Positions 12,770 to 23,946 of a stretch of 64,000 nucleotides of DNA are shown here, piece by piece. The translations under genes were made by a program, and so were the position numbers. A model generated the notes under the pieces. That model searched no databases. It worked only from the letters and a program-made list of their open reading frames with translations, and was not told the origin of the DNA. Numbering within the stretch: position 1 is the stretch's first letter; each line of letters begins with the position of its first letter. The stretch covers positions 1 to 64,000 of the forward strand of contig JAFSFY010000057.1 in the NCBI GenBank assembly GCA_017434985.1, written 5' to 3'. Origin of the DNA: Clostridia bacterium. Its GTDB lineage: Bacteria; Bacillota; Clostridia; Oscillospirales; Acutalibacteraceae.

Positions 12770-13216
12770 TTATTCTTCGTCGCAATCGCAACCGCAGTCA
12801 CAGCAATCGTCGTCGCATTCTTCAATGTCGAACTCCAAATGCTCACCGCAGTTGGGGCATTCCACGCCACCGTCGAGAAGGGTTTCTTCGTCCACGCAGA
12901 ACTCTTCTTCACAGCTGGGGCAGGTAATGTCATAGAACTCGTCTTCGCAATCACAATCACAATCGCAGCAATCGTCGTCATAGTCGTCGTAGTCATCACC
13001 GTAATACTCGGTCTCGAGGGTATCGAGATCTTCGTCAATGGTGTCGACTTGCTCGCCCATTTCTTCAACGACCTCTTCCAGATCTTCCACGCTGAGCGCG
13101 AGATCGGACAAAACGTCCATAACCGCTTTGAGGATCTTGCCCTCTTTGGTAGCGGCATCGATTTCCATACCTTCAATGAGGCCTTTCAAATAGGCCACTT
13201 TTTCCGTAATCGTCAT
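12770..13216 (-). CDS. Conserved Clostridia protein with N-terminal helical domain, zinc ribbon and Cys/Asp clusters (CD1247-like)
   Basis: The function is unknown. Residues 1-70 are helical and acidic, opening MTITEKVAYLKGLIEGM, which I recognise as the CD1247-type N-terminal domain of Clostridia. Residues 72-92 are a run of Asp, Tyr and Cys (five Cys within DCCDCDCDC). A zinc ribbon follows with CPSC at 99-102 and CPNC at 120-123, then a second cluster with CDDDCCDCGCDC to the end. With 14 cysteines among many acids it looks like a metal-binding protein. The ATG at 13216 follows GGAGG; five extra upstream codons are unlikely. It lies 43 bases after efp and is probably cotranscribed. Confidence 0.85.
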   Translation of the reverse strand: MTITEKVAYLKGLIEGMEIDAATKEGKILKAVMDVLSDLALSVEDLEEVVEEMGEQVDTIDEDLDTLETEYYGDDYDDYDDDCCDCDCDCEDEFYDITCPSCEEEFCVDEETLLDGGVECPNCGEHLEFDIEECDDDCCDCGCDCDEE

Positions 13217-13259
13217 AACAAAAACCTCCAATCATTCATTCGTCAAAACGAATCAAAGC

Positions 13260-13942: not shown

Positions 13943-16012
13943 TTATTCTTCGTCGGTTTTGCTTTCGGCAATCACCTTTTGAGCAATGGACGAGGGGACT
14001 TCCTCATAACGGGTAAATTCCATTTCATAGCGACCGCGGCCCTGCGTCGCAGAGCGCAGCATCGTCGCGTAATCGCCCATCTCGGCCATCGGAACTTCGG
14101 CGCAAACGCAAGTCAGGTCGGAATTCTCTTCCGGGTTCATACCAAGCACGCGACCACGACGTTTGTTGATATCCCCCATAATATCACCGGTGCAATCGGA
14201 CGGAACATACGCATTGACCGTACCGATGGGTTCGAGCAGGACGGGGTTGGCATCTGCAATACCGGCCTTATACGCCAGTGAGGCCGCCGTTTTAAACGCC
14301 ATTTCCGAAGAGTCAACCGGATGGTAAGAGCCGTCAACCAAGGTGGCTTTCACGCCAACCAACGGATAACCGGCCAGGACACCTTTTTGGGCGCTGTCGC
14401 GCAAGCCTTTTTCCACAGCAGGGAAATAGTTCTTCGGCACGGAGCCGCCGAACACTTTTTCTTCAAAGATAATATCTTCGGTATCGGCAGGTTCAAATTC
14501 AATCCACACATCACCGAATTGACCGTGCCCACCCGATTGTTTTTTGTGGCGGCCTTGCACTTTAACCTTGCGGCGGATCGTCTCTCGATACGGCACGCGC
14601 GGCACCTGCAACGTCACTTCCACACCAAATTTACTCTTCAACTTGGAAACGATAACGTCCAAATGTTGTTCGCCCAAGCCGGAGAGAACTTGTTCTCTCG
14701 TTTCGGGATGGATTTCAAAAGAGATGGTAGGATCTTCTTCTTTCAAGCGATTAAGACCGGCCACGATCTTTTCTTCTTCGCCCTTCTTCTTGGCATACAC
14801 TGCCATCGAAAGTGACGGTTTTTCAAAGTTAACACCCGGCAAAATTACGGGACGAACGGGCGAACACAAAGTATCGCCGGTATTGGTAGCTGCCAATTTG
14901 GCAACCGCGCCGATATCGCCCGCAACAACACACGGAACCTCTTCTTGCTTTTTGCCGCGCACCATAAAGAGTTTGCCGATCTTTTCGGCAGTGCCGGTAC
15001 GCATATTCATCAGCGTGCAATCGGGGGTAACTTTACCACTGATCACTTTGAAATACAACAGTTTTCCGACAAACGGGTCTACGATACTCTTAAAGACGAT
15101 GGCGGCGGTTTGCGCTTGCTCGGAAACGGTCAATTTCACTTCCTCGCCATTGGGGTCAATACCGGTCTCACCCGCTACTGTTTCAGCCCAAGGAGCGAGC
15201 CACATCAAACCATTCAGCAATTGGTCGACACCTTCCATACATTGTGAAGCGCCGCAATACACGGGTGCGATCTCACCGCGACGGACACCCGTTGCCAAAC
15301 CGAGAATCAACTCATCAGGCGTAAATTCGATACCAGAGAAGTATTTTTCCATCAGTTCTTCACTGGTTTCGGCAACCGCCTCGTTAATGGCAGTACGCAA
15401 ACCCTCCAAACGGTGTCCCATATCCGGAATCGGGCATTCGATAGCCTTGCCGTTTTCGTATTTGTAGGCTTTGTATTCCAACATATTGACATAGCATTGG
15501 ACTTTATGGTCTTCCACGTACGGAACGACCAACGGACAAACCATCGGCCCGAATTTGGTTTTCAGCTCTTCAAACACACGATAGAAATCGGCATGTTCGC
15601 TATCCATTTTGTTAATGAAGATAATTTGAGCAATACCCTTTTTCCGTGCCGCTGCAAAGGCTTTTTGCGCACCGACCGTCACACCGCTCTTGCCGGAAAT
15701 GACAATAACACTGCTGCCCGCCGCACGGATGCCTTCGCTCAAGCCGCCGGCAAAATCAAACAAGCCGGGGGTATCAAGCAAATTGATTTTGGTATCTTTC
15801 CATTCCAACGGAAGAACGGAAGTGGAAACCGAAGATTGACGTTTGATCTCTTCAGAATCAAAATCGGAAATGGTGGTACCGTCGGTCACTTTTCCCAAAC
15901 GGTCGGTCGCACCCGATAAATAAAGCGCTGCCTCAGCAAGCGAGGTCTTACCGGTACCGGCATGCCCCACCAAGGCAACGTTACGGATATGTTTAGCATT
16001 ATACTGTTTCAA
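13943..16012 (-). CDS. Elongation factor G-like translational GTPase (EF-G paralogue)
   Basis: The five-domain EF-G layout is present: GHAGTGKTS P-loop near residue 15, INLLDTPG (G3) near 75, INKMD (G4) near 130, then domains II-V including VNAYVPSDCTGDIMGDINKRRGRVLGM. At 689 residues it has the normal length. Two marks set it apart from canonical EF-G: the switch I consensus RGITI is replaced by SSVST, and the G3 motif is DTPGL, not DTPGH, so the His that assists GTP hydrolysis is missing. This matches the EF-G-like paralogues of Firmicutes with unclear roles. I start at TTG 16012, seven bases after GGGGAG, giving LKQYNAKHIRNVALVGH; the upstream extension is unlike the family. Confidence 0.88.
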   Translation of the reverse strand: MKQYNAKHIRNVALVGHAGTGKTSLAEAALYLSGATDRLGKVTDGTTISDFDSEEIKRQSSVSTSVLPLEWKDTKINLLDTPGLFDFAGGLSEGIRAAGSSVIVISGKSGVTVGAQKAFAAARKKGIAQIIFINKMDSEHADFYRVFEELKTKFGPMVCPLVVPYVEDHKVQCYVNMLEYKAYKYENGKAIECPIPDMGHRLEGLRTAINEAVAETSEELMEKYFSGIEFTPDELILGLATGVRRGEIAPVYCGASQCMEGVDQLLNGLMWLAPWAETVAGETGIDPNGEEVKLTVSEQAQTAAIVFKSIVDPFVGKLLYFKVISGKVTPDCTLMNMRTGTAEKIGKLFMVRGKKQEEVPCVVAGDIGAVAKLAATNTGDTLCSPVRPVILPGVNFEKPSLSMAVYAKKKGEEEKIVAGLNRLKEEDPTISFEIHPETREQVLSGLGEQHLDVIVSKLKSKFGVEVTLQVPRVPYRETIRRKVKVQGRHKKQSGGHGQFGDVWIEFEPADTEDIIFEEKVFGGSVPKNYFPAVEKGLRDSAQKGVLAGYPLVGVKATLVDGSYHPVDSSEMAFKTAASLAYKAGIADANPVLLEPIGTVNAYVPSDCTGDIMGDINKRRGRVLGMNPEENSDLTCVCAEVPMAEMGDYATMLRSATQGRGRYEMEFTRYEEVPSSIAQKVIAESKTDEE

Positions 16013-16112
16013 CGAAGGTCTCCCCTTTCTTTTTGGCGGCGAAACCACCAAAACTGACAAAATCAAGCAATATTATACAAAAATTACCAACGTATAACTA
16101 TTACTTTTGATA

Positions 16113-16155: not shown

Positions 16156-16197
16156 AAAACGCCCTCCGTCTTTTAAAAAACGGAGGGCGTTTTTTAG
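16156..16197 (-). terminator. Terminator after the P-type ATPase-like gene
   Basis: Stem AAACGCCCTCCG / CGGAGGGCGTTT around an A/T-rich loop, with T on both flanks. It ends the rlmB unit 17 bases after the stop codon. Confidence 0.85.
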
Positions 16198-16213: not shown

Positions 16214-18538
16214 TTACTGTTTTTTAACAAAAATGGAAATCGCCGCAAACACCAATGTGGCCGCCAACAACATCTCCGCTAAATAGAGCGGTGACAAGAT
16301 ACCGCCCGTAAAGAACATCGTATAGGCGACAAAGGCCATCATGGCAACGGACAAGACCGTTTGTAAAACAGTAAACAAATGTCTGCTCTTTGTCAAACGG
16401 CGGCACAAAGCGAGCGCCAAAACAAGGCCGTTGCGATTGCCGTTGGATACCACTGCAGAGACTTCCGATTCGCTGACACCGTCAACCAAGCCTTCAAACG
16501 AACGGCCGGCGGGAGCACCGAGGAGTTCGACGTAGAAACCATCCAATCCATAAACAGAAGAGATCAACTGTTCGGTAATGTTTTGATCGCAGGTGCGAAC
16601 AAGCAACGTCACACGTTGTTTCGTCAGCGAGGTAAGCATTGTTTTTACCGTTTCATCCGCCACATAACTGACTACGAACATAGCCGAGAGTTCACCGGCG
16701 ATGGACAAGTATACCAGTTGTCGACCGTTGATGGCATAGCGTTCCTCGTAATCTTTGGAGGGGATATCAATGCCGTGGTTATCAAGCAGTTTGCGGTTGC
16801 CGATCAACACACGGCGGCCGCTCACCCAACCGGAAAGACCCATATCCTGTTCGTACACCAACGTATCAACGTCACGCAGCATATCCACTTTGTTTTGAAT
16901 CATACGGCAGAAAACCGCGGACAAGGGACCGCCGGCGCGAATGGACACCGAAGCAGCATCCAAAATCGCATCGTCAATGCGTGTGCCGGAGAAGGTTTTA
17001 ATGCCGTGCAACAACACGCAGTGTTCCGGGAAAATATCCGTTGCATCCATCGCCAATGCGTGAACTTTCCCAAAATTTTCAACCGCTTTGTGACCGACCA
17101 AAGCGCAGCCTTCCCTTTTAGCGGTTCGCGCCGCACTCGTAAAAGCAAGTTGTAACGAAAAGAGTAAGAGCGACGGAGCGACAACGGCAATCAAGGCGCA
17201 AAACAACGTGAGCGTTACCATCCAAGAAGAAATGCCGTTAAGTGCAAAAAAGACAAGTGAAATAAGCAAAGAGGAACCAAAAAGAATCGGCAAGTACCAT
17301 TTCATTTGTCTGGAAGAAAGCGTGCTGTCATCCGCCGTTTTCTCGTACTGATCCACCGCGTTGGTTTCACGATAATACGCCACGCGCGGAACACCGATTG
17401 CCAGGGCGGGACGGCCAATTTCCTCTGCTAACGAGTCGTCATCAATGCAGCGATACACCGTCTTAGAAGTTCTATCTGACAACACAAAAGGCGCATTTTT
17501 GAGGCGGCGATCCCATTCAAAATGTTTGGCGAGAGCCAAAAGCAGTATGCTTAAACCGGAAATGGCCGTTAACAACGGTGTCGTTCCGTTGCGAAGATCG
17601 GTTGTATTCAAAAATTGAAGAGCGGTGTGCACCAAGGTGATCAGCGCCGATATGGTTATCCCGGAAGCAACCGTCGGTTTTCCCGCAAAAAGGTTTTTTA
17701 ATCCATCGCGTAAAAGTGTTAGATTCGAGGCGCACAGGGCGACAAATAAGGCGAGTTGAATACACAAATACGCTATCGGACCCATCGCCAAAACAGGAGA
17801 GAAAGCCGAAAACAAGGTGAGCAAGAACAAGACAATCTCCAAAATAACCGAAAAGAACAGGGCGATAGCTGAACGGCGTACCGATTCAGCGAAACGACGA
17901 ACGGAGACCGAGGATGCTTCCCGTTGTTCAGGAGGTTGTTCCTCGATTTCTTTTTCCGATGCTTCCAAAGGTGTTTCGGGGTACACAACGTCCCCGCGTT
18001 CGTCCGAAATCGGCGTATTTTCGTCGGCATCTTCACGCATATGCTGTTCTCGGCGTTGCGAGAAGTCTTCAATCTGCTCACGACGGACACGGCGTAATCG
18101 TTCTTCACGACCGATTTCTTCGCGCGGTTCTTCGGCTTCTTCAAAGCCTTCCAGCATCATTTGTGTTCCCTTGTCGGCGGGAGGTTCCTCTTCCCCATCC
18201 AACACTTGCGTATCGGACAACGAGGGAATCGGTTGCGTCGGCTCTTCGGAAAATACCTCGCGAGTATCATCGATCTCAGCGGCGATTTCCTGCGTTTCAA
18301 ACACGCGCATTTCCTCCGCTTCTTCCGTTATCGAAACGGGAGAACTCTCCTCTTCTTTTCCTTTTTTTGCACGGCGAAAGAGCCCACCTTTTTTCTTGGT
18401 GTGCTTTTTCTGCGCCAATTCTTCGTCCTCTTTGACAGTCGGGAACTCGGTCGTCGTTTCACGGAAAGTCGTTACCTCTTCAGGGATTTCTGCCGTGTTG
18501 ACTTCTACAAGTTCATCTTGCTGTTTTTTCTTTTTCAT
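16214..18538 (-). CDS. Degenerate P1B-type ATPase-like membrane protein with a long charged N-terminal tail
   Basis: Residues 1-220 are charged, low-complexity and cytoplasmic. Eight membrane helices follow at about 224-246, 251-273, 287-310, 321-340, 414-436, 439-466, 720-742 and 749-771, the P1B topology of heavy-metal ATPases. Residues 475-710 align with the P and N domains: EGCALVGHKAVENFGKVHALAMDATD stands where CopA-type pumps read GILIKGG..LE....V..VVFDKTGT, and GWVSGRRVLIGNRKLLDNHGID is a typical N-domain segment. All catalytic motifs are lost: DKTGT is DATDI, TGDN is RTCDQN, GDGxND is SNGNRNG, the helix-6 CPC is APS, and no TGES is found. It should not pump ions by the normal cycle. 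It follows rlmB by 9 bases behind GGGGG. Role unknown. Confidence 0.8.
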   Translation of the reverse strand: MKKKKQQDELVEVNTAEIPEEVTTFRETTTEFPTVKEDEELAQKKHTKKKGGLFRRAKKGKEEESSPVSITEEAEEMRVFETQEIAAEIDDTREVFSEEPTQPIPSLSDTQVLDGEEEPPADKGTQMMLEGFEEAEEPREEIGREERLRRVRREQIEDFSQRREQHMREDADENTPISDERGDVVYPETPLEASEKEIEEQPPEQREASSVSVRRFAESVRRSAIALFFSVILEIVLFLLTLFSAFSPVLAMGPIAYLCIQLALFVALCASNLTLLRDGLKNLFAGKPTVASGITISALITLVHTALQFLNTTDLRNGTTPLLTAISGLSILLLALAKHFEWDRRLKNAPFVLSDRTSKTVYRCIDDDSLAEEIGRPALAIGVPRVAYYRETNAVDQYEKTADDSTLSSRQMKWYLPILFGSSLLISLVFFALNGISSWMVTLTLFCALIAVVAPSLLLFSLQLAFTSAARTAKREGCALVGHKAVENFGKVHALAMDATDIFPEHCVLLHGIKTFSGTRIDDAILDAASVSIRAGGPLSAVFCRMIQNKVDMLRDVDTLVYEQDMGLSGWVSGRRVLIGNRKLLDNHGIDIPSKDYEERYAINGRQLVYLSIAGELSAMFVVSYVADETVKTMLTSLTKQRVTLLVRTCDQNITEQLISSVYGLDGFYVELLGAPAGRSFEGLVDGVSESEVSAVVSNGNRNGLVLALALCRRLTKSRHLFTVLQTVLSVAMMAFVAYTMFFTGGILSPLYLAEMLLAATLVFAAISIFVKKQ

Positions 18539-18547
18539 AACAGCCCC

Positions 18548-19297
18548 CTATTTTATCCCCAACCGTTGTCTTGCCACTTCGTAGGCGATAATCCCGCAAG
18601 CAACGGATGCATTTAATGAATTAATGTTACCACGCATCGGCAACGAAAGAACAAAATCACATTGTTCGCGTACCAATCGACTGATACCGCGCCCTTCAGA
18701 GCCGAGAACCAACGCCACAGCCCCGGTGAGGTCGGTTTGACACCACGGTTGCCCGTCCATATCCAAGCCGTACACCCAAAGTCCGCGTTTTTTCAGCTCT
18801 TTCAACGTTTCTGTCAAGTTGGAAACCCTGACAACCGGAACGTATTCCACGGCGCCGGCAGAGGTCTTGTACACGGTGGAATTCAACCCCACCGCATGGC
18901 GCTTGGGAATGATGACACCGTGGCACCCCGCTGCTTCTGCCGTACGCAGAACGGCACCCAAATTGTGCGCATCTTCCAATTCGTCACAGACAATAAAGAA
19001 TGGCGCTTCCCCCGACTCTTCCGCTTTGGCAAACAAGTCATCCAAGGTAGCGTATTCTTTACAAGCGGCAATCGCCATCACACCTTGATGATTGGGGCCG
19101 CACTTCGCTGTTAATTTCCGAACATCGGTCTCCTTGATCGGAATGCCGGCCTCACGGCATTTGGCTAAGATCGGGCCGATACTGCCGCTGCGGTCACCGG
19201 AAGCAACCCAAACAGAGTCCAACGGCCGCTGCGAACGCAACGCTTCCATCACCGCATTACGGCCTATAATAAAATCTTGTTCAACAGTTGGTTGCAT
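18548..19297 (-). CDS. rlmB: TrmH/SpoU-family 23S rRNA (guanosine-2'-O-)-methyltransferase RlmB
   Basis: The N-terminal domain opens with IIGRNAVMEALRS, the RlmB substrate-binding domain. The SPOUT methyltransferase follows with motif 1 DELEDAHNLGAVLRTAEAAGC near residue 108, motif 2 LVLGSEGRGISRLV near 197 and motif 3 LPMRGNINSLNASVACGI near 220, forming the knotted S-adenosylmethionine site. Length 249 is normal. It is cotranscribed with the P-type ATPase-like gene below it. Confidence 0.93.
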   Translation of the reverse strand: MQPTVEQDFIIGRNAVMEALRSQRPLDSVWVASGDRSGSIGPILAKCREAGIPIKETDVRKLTAKCGPNHQGVMAIAACKEYATLDDLFAKAEESGEAPFFIVCDELEDAHNLGAVLRTAEAAGCHGVIIPKRHAVGLNSTVYKTSAGAVEYVPVVRVSNLTETLKELKKRGLWVYGLDMDGQPWCQTDLTGAVALVLGSEGRGISRLVREQCDFVLSLPMRGNINSLNASVACGIIAYEVARQRLGIK

Positions 19298-19410: not shown

Positions 19411-21003
19411 TTAAGAACGAGCGTTGGTTCCGATCAAATCGGCGGCATCAAACAGATAGTTTCCGTTTTCATCCAGTTTACGATCCAGATTATGACACGC
19501 CACAAAGTGACCGGGCTCAACCTCCGTGAGCGGAGGCGGCACACGCTTGCATTTATCGCAAGCCATAAAACAACGCGTATGGAATTTACAGCCGGAAGGC
19601 GGTTTGATGGGACTGGGGATATTGCCTTCCAAAATAATGCGCTCTTTGGTCAAACTCTCGGGATCGGTGGTGGGGATAGAACTGAGGAGAGCCACCGTGT
19701 ACGGATGACGCGGATCTGCGAAGATCACGTCGGTAGGTGCCACTTCCACCATATTGCCGAGGTACATAACACCGATGCGATCGGAAATGTAGCGCACAAC
19801 AGAAAGGTCGTGAGAAATGAACAGATAGGTCAGTTTCTCTTGCTCTTTCAACTCTTGCAACAGGTTGATGATCTGTGATTGGATCGAAACGTCCAACGCC
19901 GACACACACTCGTCACACACCACGAATTTCGGTTTCACCGCCAACGAACGCGCAATACTGATACGTTGGCGTTGACCACCCGAGAATTGGTGCGGATAAC
20001 GGTTGTACATATAATTCTGCAAACCGCAGGACTGCATCGTCTTAAAAACGTATTCCTTCATCTTCGCCGAACCGGGTTTGAAGAACTTGTGCGTCGTTAA
20101 CCCTTCTTCGATGATCTGACCAATGGTCATACGCGGATTAAGAGAGGAATACGGGTCTTGGAAGATCACCTGCAAATCTTTGCGAAGAAGGCGCATTTCC
20201 TGTTCGGTTAAACGAGAAAGATCAATGCCGTTGTCCAGCATTGCTTCAAAATGGAGGAACTCTTCATCCTGTGCAAAGGGGCGTTTGGCTTCTTCGATTT
20301 GCTTTTCCACATCTGCCGAGGAAGCAACAAGGCTCTCGCGCTCTTTTAACAACGTCTCGCGCTTAGCGGAAAGTTTGGCCAATTTTTTCTCAATAGCTTC
20401 TTTTTTCTCCGAAAGTTCCAAGCCGGATTCCAAAACTTCCGTTTCAAGGTCTATGTCGTCCGTTTGGGAATCGATTTTGGCAACTCTCACAGCATAGTTG
20501 AACTTTTGAAGCAACAACGCAGCGCCGTTTTTGGTATCCCGAACCATAAAACCGCCCAAGATTTTGGCCACGTGTTCCAGCGCCGTTTTGGCTTCGGCAA
20601 CCGCCAAATTCTTTTCTTGTAACTCAAAGAAGGAGGCTTGCTCCCCCAACTCGTCGCATTTTTGCGTCAGTTGAGCAGCTTTTTCGTTTGCTTTGGTATA
20701 TTTGGCGATATACGCATCTGCATGTTTCAGCGTATCCAACACGTAGGACGGTGCCACGGCATTGATATCCCGACCGTAGTACATCGTACTGCCGGCGGTT
20801 TGATCGTATAATTGCAGCAACACACGGCCGAGAGTCGATTTACCGCAACCGGATTCACCGACGAGGCCGAACGTTTCGCCTTCAAAAATATCAATGGAAA
20901 TTTCCTCGTTGGCGCGAACGTACAGTTGTTCCTTTTGGAAAATGCTGGTCTTGGCCACGGGGAAGTACTTTTTGAGGTTATTTATTGACAGTAATTTCTG
21001 CAT
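19411..21003 (-). CDS. oppF: Oligopeptide ABC transporter ATP-binding protein with a large helical insertion
   Basis: An OppF/DppF-type ATPase: Walker [10 protein letters not shown] at 49-57, Q-loop [10 protein letters not shown] near 281, signature [15 protein letters not shown] near 345, Walker [12 protein letters not shown], then the C-terminal oligo_HPY domain with four Cys ([17 protein letters not shown]). Normal family members have about 50 residues between Walker A and Q-loop; here there are about 225. The extra residues, about 83-262, are mostly helical and include a clear coiled coil at 195-245 rich in Lys, Glu and Leu. The start at 21003 overlaps oppD by 26 bases; AAGGAG lies 11 bases before it. 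Confidence 0.92.
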
Positions 21004-21991
21004 GCTCAGCACTTCTCCTTTCCGCTTTTTCCGGATAGAAACATCTTACCAACTGGCCATCCGCCACTTTGGTCAACTTCGGTTCTTCCTCTAAACATTT
21101 TTGAGTGCAATACTTGCAACGCGGCGAAAATTTGCAACCTTTCGGCAGATCAAGCGGGTGCGGAACCACACCGGGGATGGGATCCAATTTTGCACGATCG
21201 TCGTTGAGGCGCGGAATCGAGTGCATAAGACCTTCCGTGTAGGGATGGCTTTGTTCACAATCGGCAAAGATCAACTTGGCCGGTGCTTGCTCCACCACTT
21301 GACCGCAATACATCACAACCACGTCGTCGGCCATTTCGTTAATAACACCGAGGTCGTGCGTGATAAACATAATGGCAGTACCGTTTTCTTTTTGGAGTTG
21401 ATTCATCAACCGCAAAATCTGCGCTTGAATGGTTACGTCGAGCGCAGTCGTCGGTTCGTCCGCAATCAAAATATCCGGTTTACACGCAAGCGCCATTGCG
21501 ATCATCACGCGCTGACGCATACCGCCCGACAATTGGTGCGGATATTGGCGTGCCACCGCCTCGGGGTTGGGAATCTGCACCGCACGCAACATCTCGATAC
21601 ATTTTTCTTCCGCTTGTTTTTTGGTCATCCCTTGGTGAATGATAAAGGGCTCGGACAACTGTTTTTTTACCGAAAAGACGGGGTTTAAGCTGGTCATCGG
21701 CTCTTGGAAAATCACCGAAATACGGTTGCCGCGGATATGATACATATCCTGCATCGGCAAGTTAACCAGGTCTTGTCCGTCGAACAGCACTTCACCATCG
21801 GCAATATAGCCGTTGGCATCGAGCAAGCGCAAAATACTCATAGCCGAAACGCTTTTGCCGGAACCGGACTCACCCACGATGCCGAGGGTCTTCCCTCTTT
21901 CGATGGAGTACGAAACGTCGTTTACCGCTTTGACCGTGCCGTTTCTGGTCTTGAAAAACGTACGGAGATTCTTAACTTCTAACAGTGCCAT
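20978..21991 (-). CDS. oppD: Oligopeptide ABC transporter ATP-binding protein
   Basis: The other ATPase of the pair, of ordinary build: Walker A GESGSGKS near residue 42, Q-loop [10 protein letters not shown], signature [15 protein letters not shown], Walker [15 protein letters not shown], then the oligo_HPY domain with [15 protein letters not shown], a Cys group found in peptide-importer ATPases. 337 residues, family-typical. The ATG overlaps the oppC stop by one base (TAATG) behind GGAGGTGG. Confidence 0.95.
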
Positions 21992-23946
21992 TATTTTTCC
22001 ACCTCCGATTTAGGATCCAACACGTCACGGAGCGTATCACCGATAACGTTGATGCAGATGACGGTGATGGACAAGAAGATGGCCGGGAACAACCAACGCC
22101 ACCAATAGTTTTGGATAACGACCGAGTTACGGCAGCCATCCAGCATATTGCCCCACGTCGGACGCGGCAACTGTACGCCGAAGCCCAAGTAGGAAAGTGT
22201 GGATTCGGTCAACATACAGGTGGCAAAATCAAGCGTAACACTGACCAAAATAACCGAGATCACGTTGGGCAGAATGTGTTTAAAAGCAATACGGCGTTGA
22301 CTGACGCCCATTGATTTGGCCGCCGTTACGAATTCTTTTTCACGCTCGGCAAGCACTTGTCCGCGTACCAATCGCGCAAGGCCCGTCCACGAAAGAAGAC
22401 CCAAAATAATCATAATAATGAAAATTCGCGTATCTTCGTTCAGGTTGGACGCTTGCAAAATGGAGGACAAAACAAGCGCAAACGGCAAAAACGGGATGGC
22501 ACCGAAAATTTCGGTAACACGCATCAGGAACATATCCACCCAACCGCCGAAATAGCCGGAAATACAACCGATGATCACGCCGATGATGGTTGCCACAATA
22601 ACAGCAACCGCACCGATGGTCATGGTCATACGACCGCCGTTCATCACACGATTGAAGATGTCACGTCCCATATTGTCGGTACCAAAGACGTACCCTTTGA
22701 GGCCCCACGCATCCACGAACTCACCGTCTTTATAGGCATAGTTTTGGAAACCGGAAGCGATTACCGTATCCACGGCTCCCGCAACGGTCAGTTGTTCGGG
22801 AACGTCGGTTTGTCCAAGTTTGCCATTACCCCAAGCATACACTTTACCGTTATCAGTCACCAAAATAAAGTGACGCGTACCGGCAGAAACCTCAACGATC
22901 TTTTCGCCCTCCGCCAACACCGGCGGTTTCGTCGCAGTGCCAAGCGTAATCACTTCGCTGTCATCGGTCAACAGTACGACCGAGTCACCACTCGCGGCAA
23001 TGTCGACGATCTTGCGAGTACCGATATAATCAAAAATGTTCACCACTTTTGTGGCGCCGTTTTCATCCAAAATCTGCAAGTTGTCATACTTGGCACTACC
23101 GCCGGTAACGAACTCGCCTTCGTCCGTCAAAGCGAACATACCGCTGTTGGTAAACGCAATTTCATCGAAATTGGCATTTTCTTTGGCAAGTTTCATCACC
23201 GCTTGCATATTGGGAGCACCCGTTTGGTCGTTACCCCACGCATACAGCGAACCGTCCTTCATCAGGATGGCCGTCACTTGGTTGCCGCAGATCAATTGCT
23301 TTACGTTATCCACATTCAACGTACCGTTGAGCAACTCGGTCGGTTGTTTGATGCACATGGCAATCAGGGTACCGTCATGGCTGTATTGCGCATTATCGTA
23401 CATACCCCAGCCGTACACTTTTCCCTTATCGTCAATGGCGATACAGTGGTCGGAACCGGCCGCCGCAAACCGAATGTTCGCATCCTGCACTTCCTGCGGG
23501 ATCTTCATCACGTCAACACGATCTTCTTTGGAAGTGGTGCCGTAGTAACCCCAAACGTGAACGTCTCCCTCTTCGTCCAAACCAAGGGTAAAGGAACCGT
23601 TGGAGGTGATAGAAACCGCACCGTCTTTCAACGAATCGGGCAATTTCATCATGTTCATATTGGGGGCAACGTTTGCATGCGCAGCCTCCATATACGACAG
23701 GTCAACCGGGTCAAACGCCGGACCGATAAACACGAACAGGAACATCGACAGCAAAACGATAACAGCCGTCGTCGCCAGCGGTTTGCGGAAAAAGCGTTTT
23801 ACCGCCAGTTTAGAGGGACTGTCATATCGCTCGTTTTCGACCGTATGCTCTTCCCCACGCATTCTGCCAAACAGATTGCCGAAAAACATTTTTTGCAAGC
23901 ATTCGGCAATAAACAACTTTTTGGGGGCTTTCTTTTGATTATTCAT
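21991..23946 (-). CDS. oppC: Oligopeptide ABC transporter permease (OppC) with an inserted extracellular RCC1-like beta-propeller
   Basis: Residues 1-57 are cytoplasmic with the family's SPSKLAVKRFFRKPLA segment, and helix 1 spans about 58-76. A normal OppC has a short outer loop here, leading into HPLGTDxxGRDxxSR. In this protein about 310 residues (106-416) come first. They carry RCC1-type repeats: DVHVWGY at 128, KVYGWGM at 176, SLYAWGN at 233, KVYAWGN at 368, and weaker ones at 275, 327 and 406. That makes about seven repeats, enough for a closed propeller. The permease then resumes with FGTDNMGRDIFNRV at 421 and the core with the EAA-like loop (AREKEFVTAAKSMGVS). By OppC topology the insert faces outside. 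The frame is unbroken with AAGGAGG before the ATG. Confidence 0.93.
   Translation of the reverse strand: MNNQKKAPKKLFIAECLQKMFFGNLFGRMRGEEHTVENERYDSPSKLAVKRFFRKPLATTAVIVLLSMFLFVFIGPAFDPVDLSYMEAAHANVAPNMNMMKLPDSLKDGAVSITSNGSFTLGLDEEGDVHVWGYYGTTSKEDRVDVMKIPQEVQDANIRFAAAGSDHCIAIDDKGKVYGWGMYDNAQYSHDGTLIAMCIKQPTELLNGTLNVDNVKQLICGNQVTAILMKDGSLYAWGNDQTGAPNMQAVMKLAKENANFDEIAFTNSGMFALTDEGEFVTGGSAKYDNLQILDENGATKVVNIFDYIGTRKIVDIAASGDSVVLLTDDSEVITLGTATKPPVLAEGEKIVEVSAGTRHFILVTDNGKVYAWGNGKLGQTDVPEQLTVAGAVDTVIASGFQNYAYKDGEFVDAWGLKGYVFGTDNMGRDIFNRVMNGGRMTMTIGAVAVIVATIIGVIIGCISGYFGGWVDMFLMRVTEIFGAIPFLPFALVLSSILQASNLNEDTRIFIIMIILGLLSWTGLARLVRGQVLAEREKEFVTAAKSMGVSQRRIAFKHILPNVISVILVSVTLDFATCMLTESTLSYLGFGVQLPRPTWGNMLDGCRNSVVIQNYWWRWLFPAIFLSITVICINVIGDTLRDVLDPKSEVEK

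Follow-up and report, generated by a model that had tools for sequence, protein, structure and literature searches.

P-type ATPases are a textbook family of pumps, and we are aware of no established member in bacteria that has been retained in the absence of its catalytic motifs. A literature search for bacterial pseudo P-type ATPases also returned nothing relevant. The window analysed here, a stretch of 64,000 nucleotides, encodes a protein that was described from the sequence alone as precisely such a case: a P1B-type ATPase that has kept its fold and lost every catalytic motif. This locus raises the question of what the protein descends from, how much of the pump is left and what role might have kept it in place.

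P1B fold and domain layout

The gene is an unbroken frame of 774 codons on the minus strand (16214-18538). No Pfam model matched the 774-residue protein, its tail included, and individual family members gave only HAD matches in Pfam, all of them sub-threshold. NCBIfam models for CopA and other heavy-metal pumps aligned with residues ~406-673 (E 1e-13 to 1e-12), far under their cut-offs. Since no Pfam or NCBIfam model recognizes the family above cut-off, it is probably carried as hypothetical in many genomes. Among solved structures, Legionella CopA (3rfu) is the closest in sequence, at E 4.5e-11, or at E 1.5e-25 when the query is a profile built from 78 members of the family.

In an AlphaFold2 model built with 78 homologues, the core reaches a pLDDT of ~95 from residue 210 onward, while the first 140 residues are disordered. 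The top Foldseek matches of this model were P1B pumps (4bbj, E 2.5e-18), and VIA-align superposed 482 residues, spanning residues 216-774, on 3rfu with a Z of 24.0. The eight helices that had been proposed are present and follow the P1B order: MA (203-252), MB (254-284), M1 (290-316), M2 (324-353), M3 (409-434), M4 (436-475), M5 (702-744) and M6 (750-773), with the P and N domains inserted between M4 and M5. Model, structure alignment and profile all place the protein among the P1B ATPases by fold and descent. A second model, of the distant member L086, has an architecture identical to that of the window protein. The gene and its parts are as follows.

16214..18538, minus strand: pseudo-P1B-ATPase gene, 774 aa plus stop (P1B fold, homologues)
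18110..18538, minus strand: acidic disordered tail, residues 1-143, with no heavy-metal-associated domain (pLDDT, composition, no Pfam match)
18023..18109, minus strand: membrane-proximal helix, residues 144-172, with the family motif R.[KE]K...F (model and motif)
17480..17932, minus strand: helices MA, MB, M1 and M2, residues 203-353 (model, profile alignment, conservation)
17315..17479, minus strand: A-domain remnant, residues 354-408, without TGES (TGES column gapped in 42/42 pseudo members)
17114..17314, minus strand: helices M3-M4, residues 409-475, with APS for CPC at 17171-17179 and the proline kept (model, motif alignment)
16994..17113, minus strand: first half of the P domain, residues 476-515, with DATDI for DKTGT at 17033-17047 (motif alignment)
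16661..16993, minus strand: N domain, residues 516-626, the most conserved part of the family, with AGGP for SEHP (model, structure alignment, conservation)
16436..16660, minus strand: second half of the P domain, residues 627-701, with CDQN for TGDN at 16580-16591 and the GDGxND block deleted (alignments)
16217..16435, minus strand: helices M5-M6, residues 702-774 (model, profile, structure alignment)

The P/N domain is as recognizable as had been claimed, its N domain aligning with those of CopA and HMA at a Z of ~14-15, and G279 is consistent with the kink that P1B pumps have in MB. The domain between the fourth and fifth helices (M2 and M3) had been judged unlike an A domain. TGES is indeed missing there, but the site holds an A domain shrunk to ~55 residues, a small beta-alpha-beta unit that is conserved within the family. 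The A domain of the genome's own CopA has ~115 residues, and a full A domain with a TGE motif is absent from the window protein.

The whole fold, from MA-MB-M1 to M6 together with the N and P domains, is common to the family and to the CopA-group P1B ATPases (Legionella CopA 3rfu, 4bbj), among which Legionella CopA is the best match by both structure and profile. Unlike that group, the family lacks DKTGT, TGES, TGD, GDGxND, CPC, SEHP and the heavy-metal-associated domain. It has instead the shrunk A domain, a deleted GDG block, a long acidic tail and an N domain that is its most conserved part.

Loss of the catalytic motifs

Motifs were read from an alignment in which the pseudo family was set beside true pumps, among them the CopA of the window genome and CopA, ZntA and KdpB of E. 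coli; counts refer to ~123 aligned homologues, a few pairs of which possibly come from one genome. An intact DKTGT phosphorylation motif, which was sought among these homologues, occurs in 0/123. Its K, G and T are missing in every one, and the window protein reads DATDI at residues 498-502. The window protein and 84/123 homologues retain the aspartate, D498; in the remaining third or so, the position is occupied by S, T, R, E, G, N or H. TGD is likewise gone (0/123; CDQN at 650-653 in the window protein), although its aspartate, D651, is kept in 123/123. No homologue has the CPC of M4, which is APS at 454-456 in the window protein; the proline persists in 102/123. SEHP of the N domain was found in 0/123, with the ATP-contact E and H missing in all, and two glycines taken as equivalent to G1101 and G1149 of ATP7B are kept in 122-123 of 123.

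The TGES and GDGxND columns were compared between 42 pseudo members and 48 unnamed true pumps. The TGES column is gapped in 42/42 pseudo members and reads TGE[SAPN] in 48/48 pumps; the GDGxND column is gapped in 42/42 and reads GDGxND in 48/48. GDGxND is found in 0/123 homologues, and profile alignment with Legionella CopA places ~38 residues that hold it within a deletion. The original prediction had taken SNGNRNG (698-704) for the altered GDGxND. This assignment was rejected: two alignments put SNGNRNG after the GDG block, at LLHGD of Legionella CopA, so GDGxND has been deleted and not mutated. The other substitutions (DATDI, CDQN, APS) and the absence of TGES were described correctly. That everything catalytic is lost is true of the motifs, but not of the residues D498 and D651. 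On both points chosen to challenge it, the structure search and the search for homologues with DKTGT, the original prediction was upheld.

It is very likely, judging from the sequence, that the pump cycle has been lost, with neither ATP hydrolysis nor pumping.

Distribution, descent and selection

A class-wide sample gave long matches in 12/12 genomes of the same order and only true pumps outside it. Within the order (probably Oscillospirales), 134/147 genomes carry one copy at E < 1e-30, and three more have divergent copies, bringing the family to 137/147. Among 147 sampled genomes of the same phylum outside the order, 0/147 have it. Named relatives, whose names are the basis for taking the order as GTDB Oscillospirales, include Anaeromassilibacillus, Caproiciproducens, Faecalispora and Massiliimalia. 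A CopA-like pump (E < 1e-90) is also present in 38/44 sampled genomes of the order. A tree built from the M3-M4-P-N region groups the pseudo members in a single clade (SH-aLRT 100) separate from all true pumps; the sister P1B branch is not resolved in this tree, where long branches make the deep order unsafe.

Purifying selection on the family is strong: dN/dS between the closest pairs is 0.03-0.20 in the core, 0.02-0.11 in the P/N region and 0.08-0.27 in the tail. The retention of the frame is therefore not due to chance, in agreement with the selection that had been proposed from its intactness; the role so kept would be a non-pumping one, in sensing or scaffolding.

It is noticeable that the pattern of conservation is inverted relative to true pumps. 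In the pseudo family, the N domain ranks highest (2.70 bits, against which the helices score 1.15-1.74 and the A remnant 1.75), whereas in CopA orthologues of the same order it ranks lowest (2.03 bits, versus 2.68-2.96 elsewhere and 2.83-2.96 in the helices); the two sets differ in diversity, and the values are comparable only as ranks within each. The strongest positions are W571, H588, Y610, Y562, F621, D522, E563, G567, G580, P593, E598 and D651, with D522, W571, H588 and E598 counted as invariant in the N domain.

The N-terminal tail

A charged tail of 220 residues had been proposed at the N-terminus. An acidic tail is present, with 59 D+E versus 31 K+R in the first 200 residues, but its disorder ends near residue 140 (pLDDT < 50 for nearly all of residues 1-139) and is followed by the helix at 144-172. 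A helical motif near the N-terminus, [YF]S[LV]DDIL or more broadly [YF]S[LVI][DE][DE]IL, was found in 62/166 sequences, counted with a slightly looser form of the motif, versus 0.26 expected from shuffling. In L086, it folds as an ordered helix (pLDDT ~88) capping a tail whose pLDDT is < 50. The motif is missing from over half of the members. Those without it include the window protein and its genus, where the other tail motifs, L.GF and R..K...F, are kept. A common partner would be suggested if other proteins of the same genomes carried the motif. This idea was rejected, as a pattern search of 15 genomes found [YF]S[LVI][DE][DE]IL at the N-terminus of no other protein.

Linkage to rlmB

The adjacent genes and the intervening terminator are as follows.

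18548..19297, minus strand: rlmB (23S rRNA ribose methyltransferase, SpoU family), directly upstream with a 9 bp gap
16160..16189, no strand assigned: inverted repeat with a T run, a likely terminator between the pseudo-pump and the EF-G-like gene (sequence)
13943..16066, minus strand: second EF-G-like gene, which is the first gene downstream of the pseudo-pump, shares its strand and is a neighbour in 35/80 homologous loci

The original prediction drew no clear hint from the link with rlmB, a view that needs revision. Of the loci of the 80 close homologues, 77 can be assessed, the other three being truncated contigs, and 77/77 have rlmB as the immediate upstream neighbour on the same strand. 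The arrangement recurs in nearly all distant members. Beyond rlmB, the next gene upstream varies, being common to at most 6/49 loci, so it is the two-gene unit of rlmB and the pseudo-pump that is specifically conserved.

Replacement of yacP beside rlmB by the pseudo-pump was considered and is not clean, YacP being absent from the window genome and one other member of the order and present in a third, G037. The EF-G-like factor at 13943-16066 (minus strand) belongs to the NF009381 subfamily, and its place in the gene order beside rlmB and the pseudo-pump may be ancestral.

Possible role of the pseudo-pump

The reading that we consider somewhat more probable than its alternatives taken together is that a duplicated copper-type P1B ATPase lost the catalytic cycle in a single event, in the order's ancestor, and has persisted as a membrane scaffold or sensor that does not pump. 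Its helices would serve as an anchor, and the fixed P/N head would offer a putative binding surface for a protein partner or for a small ligand in the altered nucleotide pocket. The long disordered tail, tipped by a short helix in many members, would tether a putative cytoplasmic partner. Co-expression with rlmB would probably reflect shared regulation and may mark a link to the ribosome or to growth state. Two features favour a scaffold or sensor headed by the N domain: the inversion of the conservation pattern and the helix on its tether. The fuller proposal, of an order-defining pseudo-P-type ATPase in which the dead P1B pump is a core, near-universal membrane scaffold or receptor, with the N domain, once nucleotide-binding, as recognition surface, a family-specific docking helix on the tail and co-expression with RlmB, has about an even chance of being right. 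D498 in about two-thirds of the members and D651 in all of them count against the scaffold or sensor, as does the lack of the tail motif in the window's genus and in over half of the family; the rlmB adjacency may also be plain operon inheritance.

A more specific role is unlikely, namely that of a non-pumping metal or metabolite sensor that keeps a membrane site, or of a regulatory subunit of a true P-type ATPase that pairs with the genome's real CopA, signalling in either case through the tail. P1B descent, the M4 proline in 102/123 homologues and the CopA-like pump in most sampled genomes speak for it. The CPC cysteines are gone, however, and the helices, less conserved than any other structured part, show no conserved set of ion ligands; the neighbourhoods contain no genomic link to a true pump. 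Eukaryotic P1B pumps have been discussed as transceptors (PMC10654040), with a long cytoplasmic terminus acting as a receptor or localization signal, an idea that could apply to the window family. Those pumps stay active and have metal-binding termini, whereas the family has neither the catalytic motifs nor a metal-binding domain in its tail.

A membrane partner for ribosome or translation functions would explain the rlmB linkage and the frequent EF-G-like neighbour, and the constancy of rlmB beside a variable upstream gene agrees with it. Pfam scans found no RNA- or ribosome-binding domain in the protein, however, and the linkage may reflect a shared promoter only, which makes this role quite improbable.

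We regard it as slightly less probable again that the protein still works as a pump or flippase, through a non-canonical cycle. The model for this is TMEM94 (ERMA), a human endoplasmic reticulum protein with a P-type-like A/P/N architecture in which TGES is missing and GDGxND is changed (PMC12134183, PMC13322241). One group reports that it pumps Mg2+ (PMC13322241), which a cryo-EM study disputes (PMC12134183). The report of pumping without TGES and GDGxND means that loss of motifs alone is no proof of inactivity, and the persistence of D498 and D651 is consistent with some activity. The resemblance to the window family lies in a P-type architecture without TGES and with an altered GDGxND, compared at the superfamily level. 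TMEM94/ERMA is eukaryotic, has ten helices, is nearest to SPCA-type pumps and keeps the aspartate in DKQGI (sequence from PMC13322241), whereas the K of this DK pair is missing in 123/123 members of the family. The family has lost more than TMEM94/ERMA. Counting against activity are the substitution of D498 itself in about a third of the members, the deletion of the Mg2+-binding GDGxND block and the absence, in every member, of K, G and T of DKTGT and of the N-domain E and H that contact ATP.

The loss of all catalytic motifs might also suggest a decaying pump pseudogene or an assembly artefact, but intact frames, one copy each, in well over 100 species across the order and the strong purifying selection leave this next to no probability. 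The favoured scaffold or sensor would make the family a test case for the reuse of a pump fold in signalling or scaffolding. The gene is single-copy, near-universal and strongly conserved in one order of gut Clostridia, yet no Pfam or NCBIfam model assigns it a function above cut-off.

Other genes in the window

Three further genes on the minus strand have unusual domain layouts or composition. The product of 21991-23946 is an OppC-type peptide permease (OppC_N 43-95, BPD_transp_1 456-646) in which RCC1-like beta-propeller repeats are inserted between the first helix and the permease core. An OppF-like ABC ATPase is encoded at 19411-21012; its Walker A region is separated from the remainder of the domain by ~190 inserted residues that are charged and coiled-coil-like. 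The gene at 12770-13231, which adjoins an EF-P-like gene, encodes an Asp- and Cys-rich protein of 153 residues, with long acidic runs and a zinc-finger-like stretch, CPSCEEEFCVDEET...CPNCG.
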